NCBI GenBank assembly: GCA_019359615.1
Contig: JAHHHA010000002.1
Span: 248,001-312,000 of the forward strand
Direction: 5' to 3'
Origin: Cyanosarcina radialis HA8281-LM2
GTDB lineage: Bacteria; Cyanobacteriota; Cyanobacteriia; Cyanobacteriales; CCAP-1448
DNA: 64,000 nt
Below, piece by piece: positions 6,911 through 26,544 of this stretch (the first letter of the stretch is position 1; every line of letters starts with the position of its first letter). Under the pieces are notes generated by a model, which worked only from the letters and a program-made list of their open reading frames with translations, ran no database searches and was not told the DNA's origin. A program made the translations under genes and the position numbers.

Positions 6911-7177
6911 ATGAACATCGTTCTTAAACCAAACCAGGAAGCTTTCATTCGCGCCAAGGTCGAAAGCGGTCGATACCAAACGGTAGATGAGGCGATTGAA
7001 GCAGCACTGCACCTGCTAGAGGAACGAGATAAAGCTGACGAACAATGGATAATTGAAACTCGCGAACAGATTAATGAGGGAGTTGCATCGCTCGCACGTG
7101 GGGAAGGAATTGATGGCGAAACGTTTGTTAACCAGCTTTTGGAAAAGTTAAAGCAGACAAAAGAGGCTCAGAAGTGA
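6911..7177 (+). CDS. ParD-like (ribbon-helix-helix) antitoxin
   Basis: This 88-residue protein begins with a ribbon-helix-helix pattern (MNIVLKPNQEAFIRAKVESGRYQTVDEAIEA, read in two parts around residue 20). An acidic helical tail follows, as in type II ParD antitoxins. The family binds operator DNA with the N-terminus and neutralises a ParE toxin with the tail. The stop codon overlaps a GTG by four bases (GTGA at 7174-7177), the usual coupling to parE. However, the downstream frame is repeat-derived sequence and ends after 61 codons. It therefore looks like an orphan antitoxin whose toxin has been lost. Confidence 0.7.
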   Translation: MNIVLKPNQEAFIRAKVESGRYQTVDEAIEAALHLLEERDKADEQWIIETREQINEGVASLARGEGIDGETFVNQLLEKLKQTKEAQK

Positions 7178-7330
7178 GTCAAGTCCAATTCGCAATTTTC
7201 AATTCGCAATTCACAATTAATACCAATTGCAAATTACCAATTGAAAAAGATCGGATGGTAGGTTGGGTTGAACGGAGTGAAACCCAACACCCCAGGAAGG
7301 TTGTGTTTCTCAACCCGATCGCTGTCTCAG
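7174..7330 (+). repeat. Repeat cluster where parE would be expected
   Basis: After the first few codons of a coupled GTG-start frame, the DNA is AATTCGCAATTTTCAATTCG-type repeats (about 7188-7245). A GGTTGGGTT...AAACCCAAC hairpin repeat follows (7260-7290), whose translation contains the peptide GWVERSETQHP. Related GTTGGGTT/AACCCAAC repeats occur at 44260-44312 and 51015-51059. Confidence 0.65.
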
Positions 7331-7383
7331 AAGTACGTAGATTCTGGTTAAAATTGTAGCAAACAGGATTTTTAAAATTTACT

Positions 7384-8658
7384 TTGGTGCATCCCAGACG
7401 AGTTGCGATCGCGATCGGTGGCGGTATTGCTGCCTATAAGGTTTGCGAGTTAATTTCTACCTTATTTCAATCTGGGGTGGAAGTTCGAGTTATTCTTACC
7501 CGTGCGGCCCAGGAATTTATTACTCCTCTAACGGTAGCTACCCTTTCGCGTCACCCAGCTTACACCGACGAAAATTTTTGGCAACCAGTCCATCACCGCC
7601 CGTTGCACATCGAATTGGGAGAATGGGCAGAAGTTTTGGTAATCGCACCTTTGACGGCGAATACTTTAGGAAAGTTAGCTTACGGCTTGGCTGATAACTT
7701 GCTAACTAATACGGTGTTGGCTTCTAAATGTCCGGTATTGCTAGCACCAGCAATGAATACCGAAATGTGGGAACAGTTAGCGGTGCAGCGCAATTGGCAG
7801 CAGTTGTTGTTAGATCCGCGCTATCACAGCGTCGGTCCGGGGACGGGCTTATTAGCGTGCGATCGCACGGGGGCTGGCAGAATGGCCGAACCATCAGAAA
7901 TCTTGGTAGCGATTCAGTCGTTGCTGCATAGTGGCGGGAAGCGAGATTTGGCTGGGAAACGAGTTTTAATCAGTGCGGGCGGGACGCGAGAACATCTAGA
8001 TCCGGTGCGATTTATCGGCAATCCCTCTACTGGCAAGATGGGTTTGGCATTGGCACAGGCGGCGGTGCAGCGGGGGGCGATGGTAACGCTGGTACATGGT
8101 GTTTTGCCTGGGGCAGACCTAACCCCCCTGCCCCCCTTCCCTGCAAGGGAAGGGGGAAAAGCCCCTCTCCTGCAAGGAGAGGGGTTGGGGGTGAGGTCGA
8201 TTCCAGTTGTTAGTGCCGACCAGATGCGACAAGCGATGCTGGAGAATTTCCCAGAAGCAGATTTAATCGTGATGGCGGCAGCGGTAGCTGATGTGAAACC
8301 AGCCTTTTATAGCGAGGAAAAATTGCCTAAAAAATCGCTACCTGCGGCTTTACCTTTAGCACCAGTTGCCGATATCTTGGCAGAGTTAGGTAACTGCAAG
8401 CAACCGCATCAAATATTAATTGGATTTGCGGCTCAAACTGGCGATATTGTGACTCCAGCTTTAGGGAAATTAGAGCAGAAAAAATTAGATGCGATCGTCG
8501 CTAATCCGATCGATAAACCCGATAGTGGATTTGGGAGCGATCGCAACACGGCCATTTGGATCGATCGTCAAGGTCGTCAGTTAGAAATTCCCCCTTGTTC
8601 TAAGTTAGAAATGGCTCATCATTTGTTCGATTTTGTCCTAACTTTAAACTCTTTCTGA
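7384..8658 (+). CDS. coaBC: Bifunctional phosphopantothenoylcysteine decarboxylase / phosphopantothenate-cysteine ligase (CoaBC)
   Basis: The N-terminal CoaC flavoprotein half has GGGIAAYK near the start, the PALNTEMW-type motif as [10 protein letters not shown], and the catalytic His in HIELGEWAE. The C-terminal CoaB half starts about residue 190 with [23 protein letters not shown] and has NPSTGKMG. Together they convert 4'-phosphopantothenate plus Cys to 4'-phosphopantetheine in CoA synthesis. The start is TTG 7384 or GTG 7387; no ATG or clear ribosome-binding site precedes the conserved [10 protein letters not shown]. Residues ~245-271 are an in-frame insertion of a palindromic repeat (see 8116-8196) absent from the usual family sequence. 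The frame stays open, so the enzyme is probably functional. Confidence 0.95.
8116..8196. repeat. Palindromic repeat inserted in frame in coaBC
   Basis: Two hairpins (CCCCCTTCCC / GGGAAGGGGG and CCCCTCTCCT / AGGAGAGGGG) are followed by TTGGGGGTGAGG, matching the core of the MITE-like repeats elsewhere in the window. It adds 27 codons with no stop or frameshift. Confidence 0.75.
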
Positions 8659-8771
8659 TACTTCCCTTCTAGCGATGCCAACTCACACAATCCAAACTGA
8701 CAAAATCTTCTCGCCGAACTCCATAGAAGTCCATCCAAAAACCTGGCGAATGAATTCGCATCTACACGATC

Positions 8772-8818
8772 GTAGACGCGCTAGCGGCTTCCCGCAGGGT
8801 AGTCCGACTGCGCGGACT
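8772..8818. repeat. Small dispersed palindromic repeat between coaBC and uvrB
   Basis: GTAGACGCGCTAGCGGCTTC followed by CCGCAGGGTAGTCCGACTGC resembles the GC-rich repeat segments at 20753-20800 and 27637-27675. It lies between convergent genes and no ORF is present. Confidence 0.5.
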
Positions 8819-8835
8819 AAACCACAACTTTCACC

Positions 8836-10833
8836 TTAATGCCCCAATAATTTATCTCGTAGATGCTTGATGCGATCGCGTAATTTAGCAGCTTCTTCAA
8901 ATTCCAATTTTTTCGCTGCTTCTTTCATTTGCGTTTCTAACTGACTAATTAATTCGGGGATGTCAGCTAAAGATAGTTCGTCGGCTTGTTCGTAGGCTGT
9001 TTCCAATTCTTGCGCGTTCAAGCGTCGAGAAACATCTAAGAAAGCCAATATTGAATTACTAGGCTTTCTAGTAACAGGTTGCGGTGTAATCCCATTAATT
9101 CGGTTATGAGCTAACTGAATCCCGCGACGGCGATCGGTTTCGTCGATCGCTTTTTTCATGCTATCAGTTAAGTTATCGGCATAAAGAATCGCTTGCCCTC
9201 TGACGTGACGCGCTGCCCGTCCGATAGTTTGCACTAGCGATCGCTCTGCCCGCAAAAATCCTTCTTTATCGGCATCTAAAATCGCTACCAAAGATACTTC
9301 TGGTAAGTCTAATCCTTCGCGCAATAAGTTGACTCCAATTAAAACATCAAAGTTACCTTGGCGTAAATCTTGGATGATTTCTATCCGTTCGATCGCTTGA
9401 ATCTCTGAGTGTAAATAGCGAACTTTTACTCCTCGATCTTCTAAATATTCAGTCAAATCTTCTGCCATCCGTTTAGTTAAAGTTGTCACTAATACTCGTT
9501 CGTGGCGATCGATCCGGTCTTGAATTTCTGCTAATAAATCGTCTACTTGTCCTTCTGTCGGTCGGACAAAAATCTCTGGATCGACTACTCCAGTAGGACG
9601 AATAACTTGTTCGACAATTCGATCTTGAGAAATTTCTAATTCCCAAGCTCCCGGAGTAGCTGAAACAAAAATGCACTGATTCATTTTTTCCCAAAATTCT
9701 TCAGATTTCAAAGGACGATTATCAGACGCACTAGGGAGGCGAAAGCCATATTCAATTAATACTTGTTTGCGAGCGCGATCGCCATTATACATCGCTCTAA
9801 TTTGAGGCACGGTAACGTGAGATTCATCGACTACTAACAACCAATCTTTGGGGAAGTAATCGATCAAACATTCCGGCGGTTCTCCAGGCTTGCGTCCAGC
9901 TAAATGTCGAGAATAGTTTTCCACTCCGTTGCAGTAACCCACCTCTCGCAGCATTTCTAAATCGTAGCGAGTGCGTCGATCTAATCTTTGCGCTTCTAAT
10001 AACTTTCCGTCGCTTTCTAAGGCGAGTAGTTGTTGTTTTAGTTCGAGTTCGATCGCTTGGCAAGCGGCTTCTAATTGCTCGTCGGGAGTGACAAAGTGGC
10101 GGGCTGGATAAATATTGAGTTCTTCTAAACTTTGCAGAATTTCTCCCGTTACCGGATCGACGTAGCGAATAGCATCGATTTCGTCGCCAAAAAATTCTAC
10201 GCGCACGATTCTATCTTCATAAGCTGGGACGATTTCTAACACGTCCCCTCTCACCCGAAATTTGCCCCGGCCGAGATCGATATCGTTACGGGAATACTGC
10301 ACGGATGCCAATTCTCGCAATAACCGACGTTGATTGGTTTCCTCGCTTACTCGCAAGGGAATCGCCGCTTTTAAATATTCGCTAGGAATCCCTAAACCGT
10401 AAATGCAACTGATAGAAGCCACTACGATCGCATCCCGTCTTTCAAACAGCGATCGCGTGGCTGAATGTCGCAGCATATCGATTTCGTCGTTAATGGCTGC
10501 GGTTTTTTCGATGTAAGTATCAGTCACCGGAATATAAGCTTCCGGCTGATAGTAATCGTAATAAGAGATGAAGTATTCCACCGCATTATTCGGAAAGAAT
10601 TCTCGCAACTCATTACACAATTGCGCGGCTAAAGTTTTATTGTGAGCTAAAACTAACGTGGGTTTACCAACTTTTTCGATAACGCTCGCTACCGTATAAG
10701 TTTTGCCAGTACCAGTAGCGCCTAGTAGAGTTTGATAACGACTGCCGCTTTCGATGTTAGAAATAAGTTTAGCGATCGCTTGGGGTTGATCGCCCGTCGG
10801 TTGAAAAGGTGCTCGAAGTTGAAATTTGGGCAT
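8836..10833 (-). CDS. uvrB: Excinuclease ABC subunit UvrB
   Basis: This is the damage-verification subunit of nucleotide excision repair and acts with UvrA and UvrC. Visible features: the N-terminal GDQPQAI motif; Walker A GATGTGKT; the [10 protein letters not shown] beta-hairpin region that clamps DNA; helicase motifs including LVVDESHVT and [12 protein letters not shown]; and a C-terminal UVR domain ([14 protein letters not shown]) that contacts UvrC. I place the start at ATG 10833 ([10 protein letters not shown]). The frame extends 17 codons further upstream, but that extension ([12 protein letters not shown]) does not resemble UvrB. From this start the protein is about 665 residues, normal for the family. 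Confidence 0.97.
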
Positions 10834-14431: not shown

Positions 14432-16543
14432 TTAAGGGTTAACATCGTGATGCAACCAAGCTTCTACGTCAGTAGCAGGCAATGGAGTCGAAAACAGATA
14501 TCCCTGTCCGCATTCGCACTCCAAGAGTTGCAAGGCCGCCAGTTGAGTTCGCGTTTCTATGCCTTCTGCTACCAACTTCATTCCTAAAGTTTTCCCTAAC
14601 ATCACGATCGCTCGCACGATTTCTAACTTGTCTTGTCGGGAGTCGATTTCGCTGATAAAAGCCCGATCGATTTTGATGGTATCTACTGGAAAACGGTGCA
14701 GATAGCTGAGAGAAGAATACCCCGTACCAAAGTCGTCTAGGGATAAACTAATTCCTCGATCTTTGAGTTTTCCTAAAGCGATCGAGGCTAATTCTGGGTT
14801 CTCGATCAGAATGCTTTCGGTAAGTTCTACAGTTAAACTACTAGCATTCAAGCCAGTCTGTTCTAAAATTCGATCGATTTGTTCCACTAGATTTTGCTGG
14901 ATAAACTCTCTTGGAGAAAGATTCACGCTCAGTTTTAGACTAGAACAATTTGAATGCCGATCTTGCCATCGCTTCACTTGGCGGCAAGCCTCCAGCCATA
15001 CCTGGTTATCGATTTGCAAAATTAATCCGGTTTCTTCTGCTAGGGGAATAAATTTTTGCGGAGAAATCCAGCCTTGGAGGGGATGATGCCAGCGCACCAA
15101 GGCTTCAAGACCTATAGTTTCTTGGGTAGCTAGGTCCACAATTGGTTGATAGTAAACCATTAGCTGACCTTCTTCGATCGTCAGTCGCAGATCGCTTTCC
15201 AGTTGCGAAGCGGCAACCACGCGATCGCGCATGGTGGTATCAAACACCTCGTAACACCCCCTGCCTTTGGCTTTGGCCTGATACATGGCGATGTCAGCAT
15301 CTTGAATGATTTCTTCAATATTTTCGTAACCGATCGAACTTAAGACCACTCCCATGCTGACGTTGGTGAAGACTTCATATCCATCCAGATTAAAAGATCT
15401 GCTAAATGCCTGCTGAATTCGTTGAGAAATCATCAATGCTTCCCGTTCGCTCTGGAGATTTTCTAACAAAATGGCAAATTCATCTCCTCCCAAACGCGCC
15501 ACTGTATCGATCGTGCGCACGCATTTCGTCAGTCTGACGGCCACAGAAATCAGCAGGTGGTCGCCAGTTGGATGTCCCATGCTGTCGTTAACCGTTTTAA
15601 AGCGGTCTAGATCTAAATAGAGAAAAGCAAATAAATAATTGGAACGCCGCCGAACTCGCTCGATCGCATCGGTCAATCGCTCTCTGAACCAAGCGCGATT
15701 TGGCAAGCCCGTGAGGTTATCATAAAATGCCTGACGGTGCAATCTTTGCGCTGTTAACCTGTGCTGGGTGACATCTCGAAAGACGATGACTGCACCTAAG
15801 ATCTGCCCTGTAGAGTTTTCTAGCGGAACAACACCTTTATCTCTAGCGATCGGGGCTACGCTATCTTCGATTTGAATTTCTCTGCCATCTTTGGCGATCA
15901 GTAAGGTTTGCTCTGGTAAGGTAACAATTTTACGGGTGTCTAGAGCTTGCCGAATCGGGTTACTAACTGTTTTTCTGCTGATTTCATTGACGATCTGAAA
16001 GACTTCGGTTGAATCTCGACCGATTGCCCGATTAGAGGACCATCCGGTCAATTTTTCCGCTACGGGATTGAGCAAAGTAATCCGACCTTGCGTATCCGTA
16101 GTAATCACCGCATCACCTATGCTGTAGAGAATCGAACTCAGCCATTGGGCATTTTCTTTTAATTGCCGTTCCATCTTATGCTTGTAAATAGCAATTTCAA
16201 TGACGGAACGTAATTCTCGTTCTTCAAAAGGTTTAATTAAATAACCGTAAGGTTCGGCTGTTTTCACCCGCGTTAAGGTAACATCGTCAGAGTGAGCCGT
16301 GAGAAAAACTACTGGCAGATCGAACTCGCGGGCAATAATTTGAGCGGTAGCAATACCGTCCATTTCACCTAAGAGCCGAATATCCATTAAGATTAAATCT
16401 GGTTTAACTTCAGCCACAGTTTTAATGGCTTGCTCTCCCGAATCAGTAATGGCGGGTACCCGATATCCTAAATCTTCTAGCGTTAGCTTCAAATCTCTAG
16501 CAACAATTCTTTCATCTTCTACAACTAGGATGTTGGCTGTCAT
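14432..16543 (-). CDS. Response regulator with PAS, GGDEF and EAL domains
   Basis: Order: CheY-like receiver (1-120, phospho-acceptor Asp54 in LILMDIRL, preceded by VVEDE); PAS (about 130-260); GGDEF diguanylate cyclase with intact LGGDEF and an inhibitory-site RxxD (RTID) five residues upstream; and EAL phosphodiesterase with GLEALVRW, ENPELAS and DDFGTGYSS. Both catalytic signatures are intact, so it could make or degrade cyclic di-GMP depending on phosphorylation and PAS state. It is the next gene downstream of the ethylene-receptor-type histidine kinase on the same strand (134 bp gap), which makes the two likely partners. Partnership is inferred from position. Confidence 0.93.
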   Translation of the reverse strand: MTANILVVEDERIVARDLKLTLEDLGYRVPAITDSGEQAIKTVAEVKPDLILMDIRLLGEMDGIATAQIIAREFDLPVVFLTAHSDDVTLTRVKTAEPYGYLIKPFEERELRSVIEIAIYKHKMERQLKENAQWLSSILYSIGDAVITTDTQGRITLLNPVAEKLTGWSSNRAIGRDSTEVFQIVNEISRKTVSNPIRQALDTRKIVTLPEQTLLIAKDGREIQIEDSVAPIARDKGVVPLENSTGQILGAVIVFRDVTQHRLTAQRLHRQAFYDNLTGLPNRAWFRERLTDAIERVRRRSNYLFAFLYLDLDRFKTVNDSMGHPTGDHLLISVAVRLTKCVRTIDTVARLGGDEFAILLENLQSEREALMISQRIQQAFSRSFNLDGYEVFTNVSMGVVLSSIGYENIEEIIQDADIAMYQAKAKGRGCYEVFDTTMRDRVVAASQLESDLRLTIEEGQLMVYYQPIVDLATQETIGLEALVRWHHPLQGWISPQKFIPLAEETGLILQIDNQVWLEACRQVKRWQDRHSNCSSLKLSVNLSPREFIQQNLVEQIDRILEQTGLNASSLTVELTESILIENPELASIALGKLKDRGISLSLDDFGTGYSSLSYLHRFPVDTIKIDRAFISEIDSRQDKLEIVRAIVMLGKTLGMKLVAEGIETRTQLAALQLLECECGQGYLFSTPLPATDVEAWLHHDVNP

Positions 16544-16677
16544 TTCGATTTTGGATGAGAGGATTTTAGATTTTGGATTAAGTTCGTCATTCGGGACGAA
16601 GCTTGTTGATGGAAGATTTTCCCTTGAAAGAGGGGATTTGAAGCCCCTTTTTTCGATTATAATAAACGATATTAGTC

Positions 16678-18558
16678 TTAGTTATTTGGGAAATATTCTA
16701 TTGACTTGATTCGGGATAGCGTGAGGGTAAACTGAGTTCCCCGCGAGCCACTTTCTATTTTAATTTGTCCTCGCAATTGCTCGGTCAAATCTTTAACTAA
16801 TTGTAAGCCCAAAGTCTGACTTTGCTCTAAATCGAAATTTAGGGGTAAGCCTCTACCGTTGTCTCTGAAGATGAGAACTAGATTGCCATCGCTATCGGTA
16901 GTAGATTCGATCGCAATTTCTCCCCGTTCTCCTGGTTCAAAAGCGTGTTCGAGCGCGTTAGAAACCAGTTCGTTAACGATCAATCCGCAGGATACTGCTG
17001 TATCGATATTGAGTAAAAAGCTGCGATCGATCTGAATTTTCAAGCTAATCGTTCCCGCCTGGGTTGCATAAGCCCGAAATAAGTTCTTAGCTAGATCTCG
17101 GATGTATTCAGCGATGTCAATTTGGGATAAGCTCTCTGACTGGTAGAGTTTTTCGTGAACGAGAGCGATCGATCTGACCCGATTTTGGCTATCTTGGAAA
17201 ACAGCCAGACTTTGTGGTTCTTTGAGCGAACGCGATTGCAGCTTTAAGAGGCTACAAATAACCTGTAAATTGTTTTTAACTCGGTGATGAACTTCTTTGA
17301 GCAGAACTTCTTTTTCTTGAAGAGAGGCAATAATTTCGGCTTCCGCTTGCTTGCGCTGGGTGATATCAAAAAAAACTCCATTAATGCGTATTGCTCGATC
17401 GTTCTCGTCGTAGAGGAACCGACCGAAAGCTGCGATCCACAAGATCTGTTTGTCGTCTGCCCGCACGATGCGATGTTCTGAACTATAAAGCGATCGCTCC
17501 TGCCTAGCTTTTTCTACTGCCTGCATGACCTGCTCTAAATCTTCTGGGTGAACGCAGTTTTGCCACATTTCTAACGTGGCCTCGCCACTTGGCACTGGTT
17601 CGTACCCTAAAAGTTTAAAGTGTTGTGCCGACCATAGAGCTTTTCCCGTTGGCAAATCGATCTCCCAGGTGGCCATCCCAACCCCTTCAATCGCTAGGTT
17701 CAAGCGTTGTTCGTTGAGCGATCGCAGTTTCTCCTCTGCCTGTTTGAGGGCCGTAATGTCGCGTCCTACCGACTGGAACTCGATCGGGTTTCCGTCCGGG
17801 TCAAAAATCATCCGGTTGTTCCATTGCGTCCAACGAACTTCTCGATCGACCACCACCCGATTTTCAATTGTCACCATCGGGCGATCTCGGTTCATCAAAG
17901 CCACCCGTTGAGTCACTAATTCGCGATCGTCCGCAAAGATGTCGGGTTCGTAGCTCTGCCCGATGGTTTCTTCTTTAGGCTTTTTGAAATAGCGGCAGTA
18001 GGCTTCATTGACGAAGAGGATAGTAGAGTCCGATCGAAATCGGCAGATCAATTCTGTCTGATCCTCGACGATGGCGCGATAGCGAGCTTCACTCACCATT
18101 AAAGCTGCCTCTACCTGTTTGCGATCGGTAATTTCTCTGGTCAGTTCTCGATTAGCCGCCTCCAATACAGTTGGACTCACCAAAGCCAGCGCCTGGGGAA
18201 CGATCGGCACCAATTCCATCGCCGTGTATACCGAGAGGATAGCGGTAATGACTTTAACCAACCCCGATACCCAGTAGGTTGGATGCCACAGCGTCCAGAT
18301 TTCCAGAACGTGGGTAGTGCCGCAAGCGATAATGAAAGCCCCGAACAGCAGAAATATGGAAGCATAGGGCAAATCTTGCCGCTTGCGAACGAAATAAATC
18401 AGGGCGATCGGAATTGAGTAGTAAGCGATCGCGATTAGCGTATCAGATATAACGTGGAGGGATACTAGTTCTGGTTTCCAGAGATAGCAGTGTCCGTGAG
18501 GAATAAAAGCTCTTACTGCTAAAAGATTGGGTAAAGTTTCTTGTCCAAGGCTATGCAC
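16678..18558 (-). CDS. Ethylene-receptor-type sensor histidine kinase (ETR1-like membrane domain, PAS, HisKA_2)
   Basis: Residues ~30-130 form three transmembrane helices matching the ethylene-binding domain of plant ETR1 and cyanobacterial SynEtr1. Asp39, Tyr46, Ile76, Cys79 and His83 reproduce the spacing of ETR1 Asp25, Tyr32, Ile62, Cys65 and His69; the Cys and His coordinate Cu(I). Two PAS/PAC modules follow (about 155-275 and 285-405), then a HisKA_2-type phospho-acceptor at EVHHRVKNN (His424/425) and an ATPase with NELVSNALEHAF and DNGRGLP. The domain order is complete (626 aa). The neighbouring receiver-GGDEF-EAL gene is the likely output. Ethylene binding is a strong prediction from the residues; the physiological response is inferred. 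Confidence 0.93.
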   Translation of the reverse strand: MHSLGQETLPNLLAVRAFIPHGHCYLWKPELVSLHVISDTLIAIAYYSIPIALIYFVRKRQDLPYASIFLLFGAFIIACGTTHVLEIWTLWHPTYWVSGLVKVITAILSVYTAMELVPIVPQALALVSPTVLEAANRELTREITDRKQVEAALMVSEARYRAIVEDQTELICRFRSDSTILFVNEAYCRYFKKPKEETIGQSYEPDIFADDRELVTQRVALMNRDRPMVTIENRVVVDREVRWTQWNNRMIFDPDGNPIEFQSVGRDITALKQAEEKLRSLNEQRLNLAIEGVGMATWEIDLPTGKALWSAQHFKLLGYEPVPSGEATLEMWQNCVHPEDLEQVMQAVEKARQERSLYSSEHRIVRADDKQILWIAAFGRFLYDENDRAIRINGVFFDITQRKQAEAEIIASLQEKEVLLKEVHHRVKNNLQVICSLLKLQSRSLKEPQSLAVFQDSQNRVRSIALVHEKLYQSESLSQIDIAEYIRDLAKNLFRAYATQAGTISLKIQIDRSFLLNIDTAVSCGLIVNELVSNALEHAFEPGERGEIAIESTTDSDGNLVLIFRDNGRGLPLNFDLEQSQTLGLQLVKDLTEQLRGQIKIESGSRGTQFTLTLSRIKSIEYFPNN

Positions 18559-18733: not shown

Positions 18734-18756
18734 TCCCCCGACAGGCGATCGGGGGA
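18734..18756 (-). terminator. Rho-independent terminator after the DUF4912 gene
   Basis: TCCCCCGA and TCGGGGGA form a perfect 8-bp stem with a 7-base loop, followed on the minus strand by TTTTATT. It lies about 105 bp past the DUF4912 stop codon. The rest of 18559-18861 shows the kinase promoter side and an ACTTCTGAAC-type tandem repeat near 18823-18855, but no gene. Confidence 0.75.
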
Positions 18757-24831: not shown

Positions 24832-26544
24832 TTAACGCTCTGCCAATCGCCAAATCTTAATCGATGTGTCCTTTTTGATGAATAGGTTTCCGGCCCCACT
24901 AGCCAAAGTTCGCCCATCGGGGCTGATGGCAACGGAATTAACTTGCTCGGAATGTCCGGTGAGAGTTTGTCGCAGTTCCCCACTTCTTAGATCCCAGATT
25001 TTGATGGTTTTGTCCCAACCTCCAATAACTAAAGTTCGCCCGTCGGGGCTGATGGCAACAGAATTCACCCAGCCGGAATGTCCGGTGAGAGTTTGTCGCA
25101 GTTCCCCACTGCTGAGGTCCCAGATTTTGATAGTGTCGTCACCGCTACCACTAACTAAAGTTCGCCCATCGGGGCTGATGGCAACAGACCAAACCAAGTC
25201 GGAATGTCCGGTGAGAGTTTGTCGCAGTTTGCCGCTGCGGATGTCCCAGATTTTGATAGTTTTGTCCCAACTTCCACTAACTAAAGTTCGCCCATCGGGG
25301 CTAATGGTGACAGAAGTAACTACATTGGAATGTCCGGTGAGAGTTTGTCGCAGTTTGCCGCTGCGGATGTCCCAGATTTTGATAGTGTCGTCATCACTAC
25401 CACTAGCTAAAGTTTGCCCATCGGGGCTGATGGCAACAGACCAAACCGCGCCGGAATGTCCGGTGAGAGTTTGTCGTAGTTTTCCACTGCTGAGGTCCCA
25501 GATTTTGATGGTGTCTGCTTGCCCACTAACTAAAGTCTCTCCATCGGGGCTAATGGCAACAGAAGAAACCCTGCTGGAATGTCCGGTAATAGTGCGCCGC
25601 AATTTCCCGCTGCTGAGGTCCCAGATTTTGATAGTTTTGTCCCAACTTCCACTAACTAAAGTTTGCCCGTCAGGGCTGATGGCAACGGACTCAACAGACA
25701 AGGAATGTCCGGTAAGGGTTTTGAATAAAGAAAAGTTGCCACGAGAGTTGTAAGCAACACTGTCGGTAGAGGGTGTCGGAGTTGGCTGTGGAGACGGTGC
25801 AGGTGTTCTTCTTGGTGGTTCAGTTACACTAGCTGGCGGCGAACTAGGTAAAGTCGTTCTCGGCGGCGTAGGGGTTCTGGCGACGTTAGCAAGCTGGGCA
25901 TAGGTATCAATCGGGATGGCAAAAAAGTCAGTCTGCTGGGTGTTAATATCGGGGATCGCTAGTCCGTTAATCCCCACTAAGCGCCCCTCGTCATCCAGTA
26001 CCGGGCCGCCACTCATCCCCGGTTTGATGGGATTGGTATAAATCCAGGAATAACCATCTTTAGCCTTTGGCAAGCGTCCGATAAGCTGTCCTGAAGGATA
26101 GCGATCGCATCGTTCCAAGCAAGTTCTATCGGGGGCAATCCAACCAGCAGCATAAACGGTTGTGCCTTCGGGAATTTTATCTGAGTTTCCCAACTGCGCC
26201 ACCCGATAAGTGCGATCGCTAGTAAACTGCAATACGGCTAAATCGACGTTGCCCAAGCGTTGGATTTGGTTGGAGTTAATTTGGTAAGTTTTGCCATCAG
26301 CAGTTTGAATCGTATAAGTTCCCGCTTCCTTGACTACGTGCCAGTTAGTCAAGACGGTGTAATTATTGTTTTGGCGATCGACTATCACCCCAGTTCCGGT
26401 ATTCGCCCCATCAATGCGTACCATAATTTGTTTGGCGATCGCATTGACATCCGCAGGCGACAAGCTGACGGCGAGTTGAGGCGGAATTAGAGTAGCGATC
26501 GCTGTCCCCATTAAAACCGCTGGGAGTCTATACGAGAAGTTCAT
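24832..26544 (-). CDS. Secreted trypsin-like serine protease with seven WD40 repeats
   Basis: This 570-residue protein has a signal-type N-terminus (LPAVLMGTAIATLI). A chymotrypsin-like domain (residues ~30-235) has the triad His69 (LTNWHVV), Asp101 (VDLAVLQF) and Ser178 (PGMSGGPV). A Pro/Thr/Ser linker (about 240-270) leads to seven WD40 repeats built on GHSxxVxSVAISPDGxTLxSGSxDxTIKIWDL, enough for one propeller. The repeats are nearly identical, so recent duplication or gene conversion is likely. The first 235 residues are paralogous to the protease at 27829-29238, which carries TPRs instead. The propeller probably binds substrate or a partner. The target is unknown. Confidence 0.92.
   Translation of the reverse strand: MNFSYRLPAVLMGTAIATLIPPQLAVSLSPADVNAIAKQIMVRIDGANTGTGVIVDRQNNNYTVLTNWHVVKEAGTYTIQTADGKTYQINSNQIQRLGNVDLAVLQFTSDRTYRVAQLGNSDKIPEGTTVYAAGWIAPDRTCLERCDRYPSGQLIGRLPKAKDGYSWIYTNPIKPGMSGGPVLDDEGRLVGINGLAIPDINTQQTDFFAIPIDTYAQLANVARTPTPPRTTLPSSPPASVTEPPRRTPAPSPQPTPTPSTDSVAYNSRGNFSLFKTLTGHSLSVESVAISPDGQTLVSGSWDKTIKIWDLSSGKLRRTITGHSSRVSSVAISPDGETLVSGQADTIKIWDLSSGKLRQTLTGHSGAVWSVAISPDGQTLASGSDDDTIKIWDIRSGKLRQTLTGHSNVVTSVTISPDGRTLVSGSWDKTIKIWDIRSGKLRQTLTGHSDLVWSVAISPDGRTLVSGSGDDTIKIWDLSSGELRQTLTGHSGWVNSVAISPDGRTLVIGGWDKTIKIWDLRSGELRQTLTGHSEQVNSVAISPDGRTLASGAGNLFIKKDTSIKIWRLAER

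Follow-up and report, generated by a model that had tools for sequence, protein, structure and literature searches.

Introduction

In Synechocystis PCC 6803, the kinase SynEtr1 (UirS) carries an N-terminal ethylene-binding domain (EBD) and is encoded in one gene cluster with the response regulator Slr1213 (UirR) and with Slr1214. According to the openly available parts of the literature, a phytochrome-like light domain is part of SynEtr1, which acts via Slr1213, predicted to regulate transcription as a transcription factor, and via a small RNA, csiR1 (PMC11819568, PMC6508509, PMC5812497), joining ethylene and light sensing (PMC5812497). In Azospirillum brasilense, the EBD-PAS-histidine kinase AzoEtr1 is adjacent to the gene of a receiver, AzoRR(etr1), for which the accessible descriptions give no recognizable output domain. 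Ethylene lowers cyclic di-GMP (c-di-GMP) and biofilm in Azospirillum, by a pathway that the 2025 report, in its openly available part, states as unknown (PMC11819568). Here, we analysed a stretch of 64,000 nucleotides (nt) from the cyanobacterium Cyanosarcina radialis HA8281-LM2 (contig JAHHHA010000002.1, positions 248,001 to 312,000; the window, at its full length), which encodes an ethylene-receptor-type histidine kinase and, as the next gene on the same strand, a REC-PAS-GGDEF-EAL response regulator, referred to below as the enzyme. The pair resembles the SynEtr1 system in its cyanobacterial kinase with an N-terminal EBD and a regulator gene in the same cluster, and the Azospirillum system in its EBD-PAS-histidine kinase and adjacent receiver gene. 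However, the window kinase is of the HisKA_2 type without a GAF or phytochrome match, and its regulator is a GGDEF-EAL protein, unlike Slr1213 and AzoRR(etr1), which places the pair outside the SynEtr1/UirS-UirR type.

GeiEtr2 of Geitlerinema PCC 7105 was grouped in 2019 with a gene carrying a diguanylate-cyclase domain, in one sentence of the available text (PMC6682694). We found that a 623-amino-acid (aa) GGDEF frame adjoins the published GeiEtr2 coordinates. GeiEtr2 is a hybrid kinase (EBD-PAS-GAF-kinase-receiver) and resembles the type that we describe below at loci L111, L116, L127, L130 and L191, not the HisKA_2 type of the window. A further related system is PcrK-PcrR, which we take to come from Xanthomonas and whose kinase presumably has a CHASE domain; it senses cytokinin, not ethylene. 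Its likeness to the window pair lies in a plant-hormone-sensing kinase with a regulator that degrades c-di-GMP, and the same source, as far as it is openly available, credits prokaryotic ethylene-receptor homologs in general terms with a wide range of output domains (PMC7700396).

In the openly readable literature we found no circuit described in which an ethylene receptor has a c-di-GMP enzyme as its partner or within the same protein, although such a description may exist in print. The link between ethylene and c-di-GMP is not wholly new, because of the GeiEtr2 neighbour and the drop of c-di-GMP in Azospirillum, at least as the accessible texts present them. A sequence-only reading of this DNA had stated that known cyanobacterial ethylene receptors use other regulators, in agreement with the published route from SynEtr1 to Slr1213, and had called a direct ethylene-to-c-di-GMP circuit new if the two proteins are partners. 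In the literature available, we did not see the circuit described as a module, and the two partial precedents narrow the claim of novelty (PMC6682694, PMC11819568).

Results

The kinase-enzyme pair is conserved as neighbours

We searched an order-wide sample of 388 genomes for relatives of the enzyme at E<=1e-180, keeping the two best candidates per genome, with weaker relatives outside this scope. Such relatives were found in 17 genomes, the source genome included, and in the 16 others the enzyme lay directly downstream, on the same strand, of a HisKA_2 kinase without exception (16/16). Where the HisKA_2 domain ends, 371-758 nt remained before the enzyme match in these relatives and 524 nt in the window, which leaves room for little beyond the ATPase domain in between. 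An EBD was present in the same frame in 11 of the 16 linked kinases (G634, G549, G488, G571, G596, G446, G424, G480, G401, G441 and G638). The sequence-only reading had proposed to look for a conserved neighbourhood, which is thus present. Adjacency was judged by coordinates, comparing the enzyme with the kinase, HisKA_2 and EBD matches; the sequence of the whole pair was read for G401 (locus L058) only and in part for G441, G634, G480, G549, G446, G638, G488, G424, G617 and G596, and the pairs of G386, G571, G553, G503 and G469 are known from coordinates alone. The 16 pairs span seven families (f1, f5, f7, f9, f12, f14 and f58), with EBD-bearing pairs in f5, f7, f12, f14 and f58 besides the f1 of the window, and G170 (f27), outside the order and in the same class, shows the same arrangement at locus L187.

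We then compared the HisKA_2 domains of the pairs with 28 others found in these 16 genomes (E<=1e-8). None of the 28 shared a frame with an EBD when set against all 63 other EBD rows and the 11 pair rows, compared with 11 of 16 in the pairs (Fisher p 6e-7), indicating that the EBD is specifically associated with this pair. The EBD as an obligatory part of the pair was rejected, since five of the 16 pairs are without it. In G634, the c-di-GMP enzyme is followed on its strand by a further HisKA_2 kinase domain (G634:C326:534-761), which might form a three-gene set with the pair.

Kinase and receiver trees match

A total of 80 HisKA_2 kinase-receiver pairs were analysed, with 19 loci skipped as duplicate, cut off or non-HisKA_2. 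In the tree of kinase cores, the window kinase and seven other kinases of REC-PAS-GGDEF-EAL pairs formed one group, with a support of 95 in the Shimodaira-Hasegawa-like approximate likelihood-ratio test (SH-aLRT); the partner type of L296 and L299, whose loci are cut, was taken from the search for enzyme relatives. The nearest rows to the window in the receiver tree were likewise of the REC-PAS-GGDEF-EAL type, with weak supports. L187, which has an EBD, and L255 (Leptolyngbya sp. ULC186bin1), which has none, share this partner type but grouped apart from the others (SH-aLRT 95 in the kinase tree and 100 in the receiver tree). Kinase and receiver distances were correlated, with r of 0.73 over all 80 pairs, 0.80 over the 60 cyanobacterial ones and 0.90 over the 28 labelled as EBD-bearing, and none of 5000 permutations gave a value as high. 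L316, whose locus is cut, was counted as without EBD in the kinase tree and in this correlation; an in-frame EBD was seen there, and the label was changed for the receiver tree only. On the EBD tree, from which five named loci and EBD matches below 60 bits were left out, the EBDs of the 11 pair kinases clustered, requiring 3 changes compared with 10.8 in shuffles.

The window kinase has an intact ethylene-binding domain

The kinase matched the Pfam families ETR1_N (144.8 bits, cut-off 27), HisKA_2 (104.8 bits) and HATPase_c (51.6 bits), together with PAS and PAS_3, and no GAF or phytochrome family at E<=0.001. Alignment showed all seven ethylene-binding residues of ETR1 to be present (D39, Y46, I49, P50, I76, C79 and H83), with the ETR1 spacings of 7 from D to Y and 33 from Y to C, so that the five residues named by the sequence-only reading (D39, Y46, I76, C79 and H83) were recovered at their exact spacing. 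K102 aligned with ETR1 K91, and the loop preceding it was three residues shorter than in ETR1. We take the remaining ETR1 counterparts to be Y32, I35, P36 and I62, and the length of the ETR1 loop before K91 is likewise our assumption. The ETR1 numbers D25, C65, H69 and K91 are given in the openly available part of PMC11819568.

ETR1_N matched in none of 14 control genomes. Among 168 EBDs that we examined, the Cys was retained in 165, the His in 166 and the Asp in 157; because these residues are near-universal and are kept in the window, its EBD is a typical intact domain. The Asp equivalent to ETR1 D25 was replaced by Asn in eight of the 168 and by His in one. An AlphaFold2 model of the EBD gave three long helices (29-59, 66-89 and 93-116), candidates for the three transmembrane helices of an ETR1_N-type receptor, at moderate confidence, with a mean predicted local distance difference test score of 70.5 and a predicted template modelling score of 0.45. 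A sequence search against solved structures returned nine matches at E<=0.01, all within the PAS and kinase parts and none to the ethylene domain. Overall, the sensor looks able to bind ethylene, judging by its conserved residues.

Both a HisKA_2 box with a phospho-acceptor His and an ATPase domain are present in the kinase. Since His425 was invariant across eight aligned kinases and position 424 was H or Y, His425 is the predicted phospho-acceptor; the sequence-only reading had named His424/425, and the latter alternative is the one retained.

The enzyme retains the motifs of synthesis and breakdown

The enzyme matched Response_reg (82.3 bits), GGDEF (162.3 bits) and EAL (248.1 bits), and PAS_4 and PAS as well. 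The receiver residues D54, T82 and K104 were all present, an I-site (R343xxD346) preceded the GGDEF motif beginning at 352, and the EAL domain kept E480, N541, E573, D603, D604, K624, E660 and Q680; the catalytic roles of these GGDEF, EAL and receiver residues are those that we take them to have. The catalytic residues checked in both domains did not vary among the proteins of the window, L058 and L187, the three that were aligned at full length. In a sequence search, the enzyme strongly matched solved GGDEF-EAL proteins, among them 5m3c ('Diguanylate cyclase') and 4rnh ('Motility regulator'). Pfam and the residue check thus agree with the receiver-PAS-GGDEF-EAL protein with intact motifs that had been read from the sequence, and the enzyme should make or break c-di-GMP. 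As GGDEF and EAL are both intact, its sequence is compatible with synthesis as well as with breakdown.

EBDs are tied to c-di-GMP enzymes in three architectures

EBD matches were found in at least 90 of the 386 genomes of a phylum sample. We read 145 EBD frames from 139 places, which are part of those listed and exclude the source genome, using domain models built from the window's own domains, which undercount distant PAS, GAF and HisKA; the best 80 matches of the contig scan, mostly HisKA_2 kinases without EBD, served as comparison. Among the 145 frames, a GGDEF domain was fused in 6, encoded by the next same-strand gene in 11, within the next three genes in 5 more and elsewhere nearby in 4. 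The next downstream gene carried GGDEF on the same strand in 15 of 167 EBD frames and on the opposite strand in 0 of 167, and the upstream neighbour did so in 2 and 1 of 166, respectively. Among genes more than three away from an EBD, 4 of 922 carried GGDEF, compared with the 15 of 167 downstream (Fisher p 8e-10).

Three architectures were seen in which the EBD is tied to c-di-GMP, namely the HisKA_2 pair, hybrid kinases together with REC-GGDEF-EAL proteins, and direct EBD-PAS-GGDEF(-EAL) fusions. Hybrid kinases followed by REC-GGDEF-EAL were found at L111, L116, L127, L130, L148, L165, L168 and L191. The custom models gave 11 frames with direct fusions, and Pfam found ETR1_N and GGDEF in 9 of the 11, which were all those submitted. 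By the custom models, EBD-PAS-GGDEF-EAL occurs in one protein at L054, L056, L063, L065, L066, L091, L129, L217 and L300 (Pfam was run on L054, L056, L065, L066, L091 and L129), and the EBD is fused to GGDEF without EAL at L073, L115, L175 and L193. These fusions show that the EBD also serves c-di-GMP output outside the pair. To place the 16 fused rows on the EBD tree takes a minimum of 12 label changes, only 3 of them enforced by branches with good support; this poorly resolved tree suggests that the fusion arose repeatedly.

In the L066 fusion (7038-9347), Ser replaces the copper-ligand Cys and Met replaces the Ile three positions before it, and ethylene binding may therefore be lost there. 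At L152 (8312-8923), an EBD frame of 203 aa has a GGDEF frame of 144 aa behind it on the same strand, and the two may represent an EBD-GGDEF protein that was split or has decayed. Nostoc-type EBD-HisKA_2 kinases precede REC-PAS-HATPase proteins instead, and another group precedes regulators with the receiver as sole recognised domain, so c-di-GMP is one of several EBD outputs.

Gene organization in the window and other EBDs of the genome

The features are collected in Table 1; both genes lie where the sequence-only reading had placed them. A consensus scan listed no terminator-like site on the minus strand within the gap between the genes. This gap contains a 6-pair hairpin on the plus strand (16583-16600) and a promoter-like match on the minus strand (16590-16563, 9/12), for which site counts are at chance level. 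The terminator-like hairpin upstream of the kinase sits between a DUF4912 gene and the kinase, and the gene pair may therefore begin its own transcript.

Table 1. Features of the kinase-enzyme locus (window coordinates)
Feature	Coordinates	Strand	Size	Details	Basis
Response regulator REC-PAS-GGDEF-EAL	14432..16543	minus	703 aa	REC D54; I-site RxxD 343-346; GGDEF 352-356; EAL 480-482	Open reading frame translation, Pfam
Gap between kinase and enzyme genes	16544..16677	minus	134 nt		
Ethylene-receptor-type histidine kinase	16678..18558	minus	626 aa	GTG start; ETR1_N 31-126, PAS 159-268, PAS_3 308-395, HisKA_2 422-497, HATPase_c 526-615 (aa)	Open reading frame translation, Pfam
EBD (ETR1_N) inside kinase	18181..18468	minus		D39, Y46, I49, P50, I76, C79, H83, K102	
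Terminator-like hairpin	18734..18756	minus	9 pairs	T-rich tail; regional count at chance level	Consensus match

Three EBD matches, the window kinase among them, were found in the source genome (6.5 Mb, 65 contigs). The second belongs to an 864-aa kinase-type protein (EBD-HATP-REC-HATP by the custom models), with no GGDEF gene within its 17-kb locus. The third, at L011 1333-1713 (G000:C58:108703-108849), is a truncated 126-aa frame, 84% identical to residues 8-56 of the window kinase; it looks broken and adjoins a gene that by eye resembles a TnpB/OrfB transposon gene. Elsewhere in the window, a minus-strand frame at 24832-26544 has, by eye from its translation, WD40-type repeats behind an N-terminal part that is trypsin-like.

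Discussion

Adjacency in every relative and the correlated kinase and receiver distances support partnership well, and we consider it highly likely that the kinase and the enzyme are partners. That the whole forms a cognate two-component system making c-di-GMP respond to ethylene is the reading toward which we lean, with less assurance, as a well-supported prediction of a circuit from known parts. As the conserved residues suggest, Cys79 and His83 of the membrane domain would hold the Cu(I) to which ethylene binds, and binding would change, probably lower, the autophosphorylation of His425 by the HisKA_2/HATPase core, by analogy with published ETR1 and, indirectly, SynEtr1. The phosphate would then move from His425 to Asp54 of the neighbour's receiver, which is consistent with the conserved adjacency and the matching trees, and the receiver would shift the balance of synthesis by GGDEF and breakdown by EAL, both domains being intact. 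The stable unit would be the kinase-enzyme pair, with the EBD as its commonest sensor, and an exchangeable one since pairs without it include the nearest relative; the PAS domains of kinase and enzyme may supply further inputs. The direct fusions of EBD and GGDEF and the drop of c-di-GMP under ethylene in Azospirillum (PMC11819568) also speak for this reading.

Several observations weigh against this circuit. No EBD was found at E<=0.001 in five of the 16 linked kinases (G386, G617, G553, G503 and G469), and G386, the nearest relative and the only other genome of the same family in the sample, has an enzyme 65% identical to that of the window. The gap of the window is 134 nt compared with 4 in L058, 9 in L187 and about 20 between matched ends in G634, and it contains the hairpin and the promoter-like match at chance level noted above. 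Few columns underlie the receiver tree, and its supports around the window are only 80-87. Linkage and a common species history would by themselves make the distances of adjacent genes correlate, so that the correlation supports a common fate and stops short of proving phosphotransfer. Finally, 119 of the 145 EBD frames of the phylum sample have no GGDEF gene within two genes upstream or three downstream, and c-di-GMP is therefore a minority output.

The pairs without EBD, together with the PAS domains in both proteins and the coupling of ethylene with light sensing described for SynEtr1 in the accessible text (PMC5812497), would also fit a generic HisKA_2 kinase/REC-PAS-GGDEF-EAL pair in which PAS provides the main signal and the EBD is accessory or senses copper, another olefin or the membrane state. 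We regard this as unlikely, though deserving of some weight, given the confinement of the EBD to the pair kinases among the HisKA_2 domains compared and the retention of all seven binding residues. In tandem GGDEF-EAL proteins one of the two domains is often silent, and the pair could work with the enzyme mainly as a c-di-GMP receptor or scaffold, turnover not being its output; the presence and invariance of the catalytic residues of both domains and the strong matches to 5m3c and 4rnh make this very unlikely. Least credible to us is that the genes are neighbours by chance or history and that the kinase signals to another receiver, for which the long gap with its hairpin could speak. Against it stand the neighbourhood kept over seven families, the matching trees and distances, and the GGDEF enrichment in the next same-strand gene; chance adjacency was rejected on the neighbourhood and this enrichment.

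The recurrence of the pair in related cyanobacteria suggests that ethylene may steer c-di-GMP directly. A broader proposal, which we hold tentatively, at somewhat under even chances, is that cyanobacteria recurrently use ethylene as a c-di-GMP input and that the EBD has been connected to c-di-GMP enzymes repeatedly, along three routes or more. Of the two characterised bacterial ethylene receptors in the literature available, SynEtr1 is held to act via a regulator of the transcription-factor kind and AzoEtr1 via a receiver alone. The conserved pair of EBD kinase and c-di-GMP enzyme lends itself to testing a circuit from gas to second messenger, and the direct EBD-GGDEF fusions, as sensors made of one protein, would be simpler yet to assay. 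If true, the recurrent wiring of the EBD to c-di-GMP would help explain the effects of ethylene on biofilm and phototaxis.

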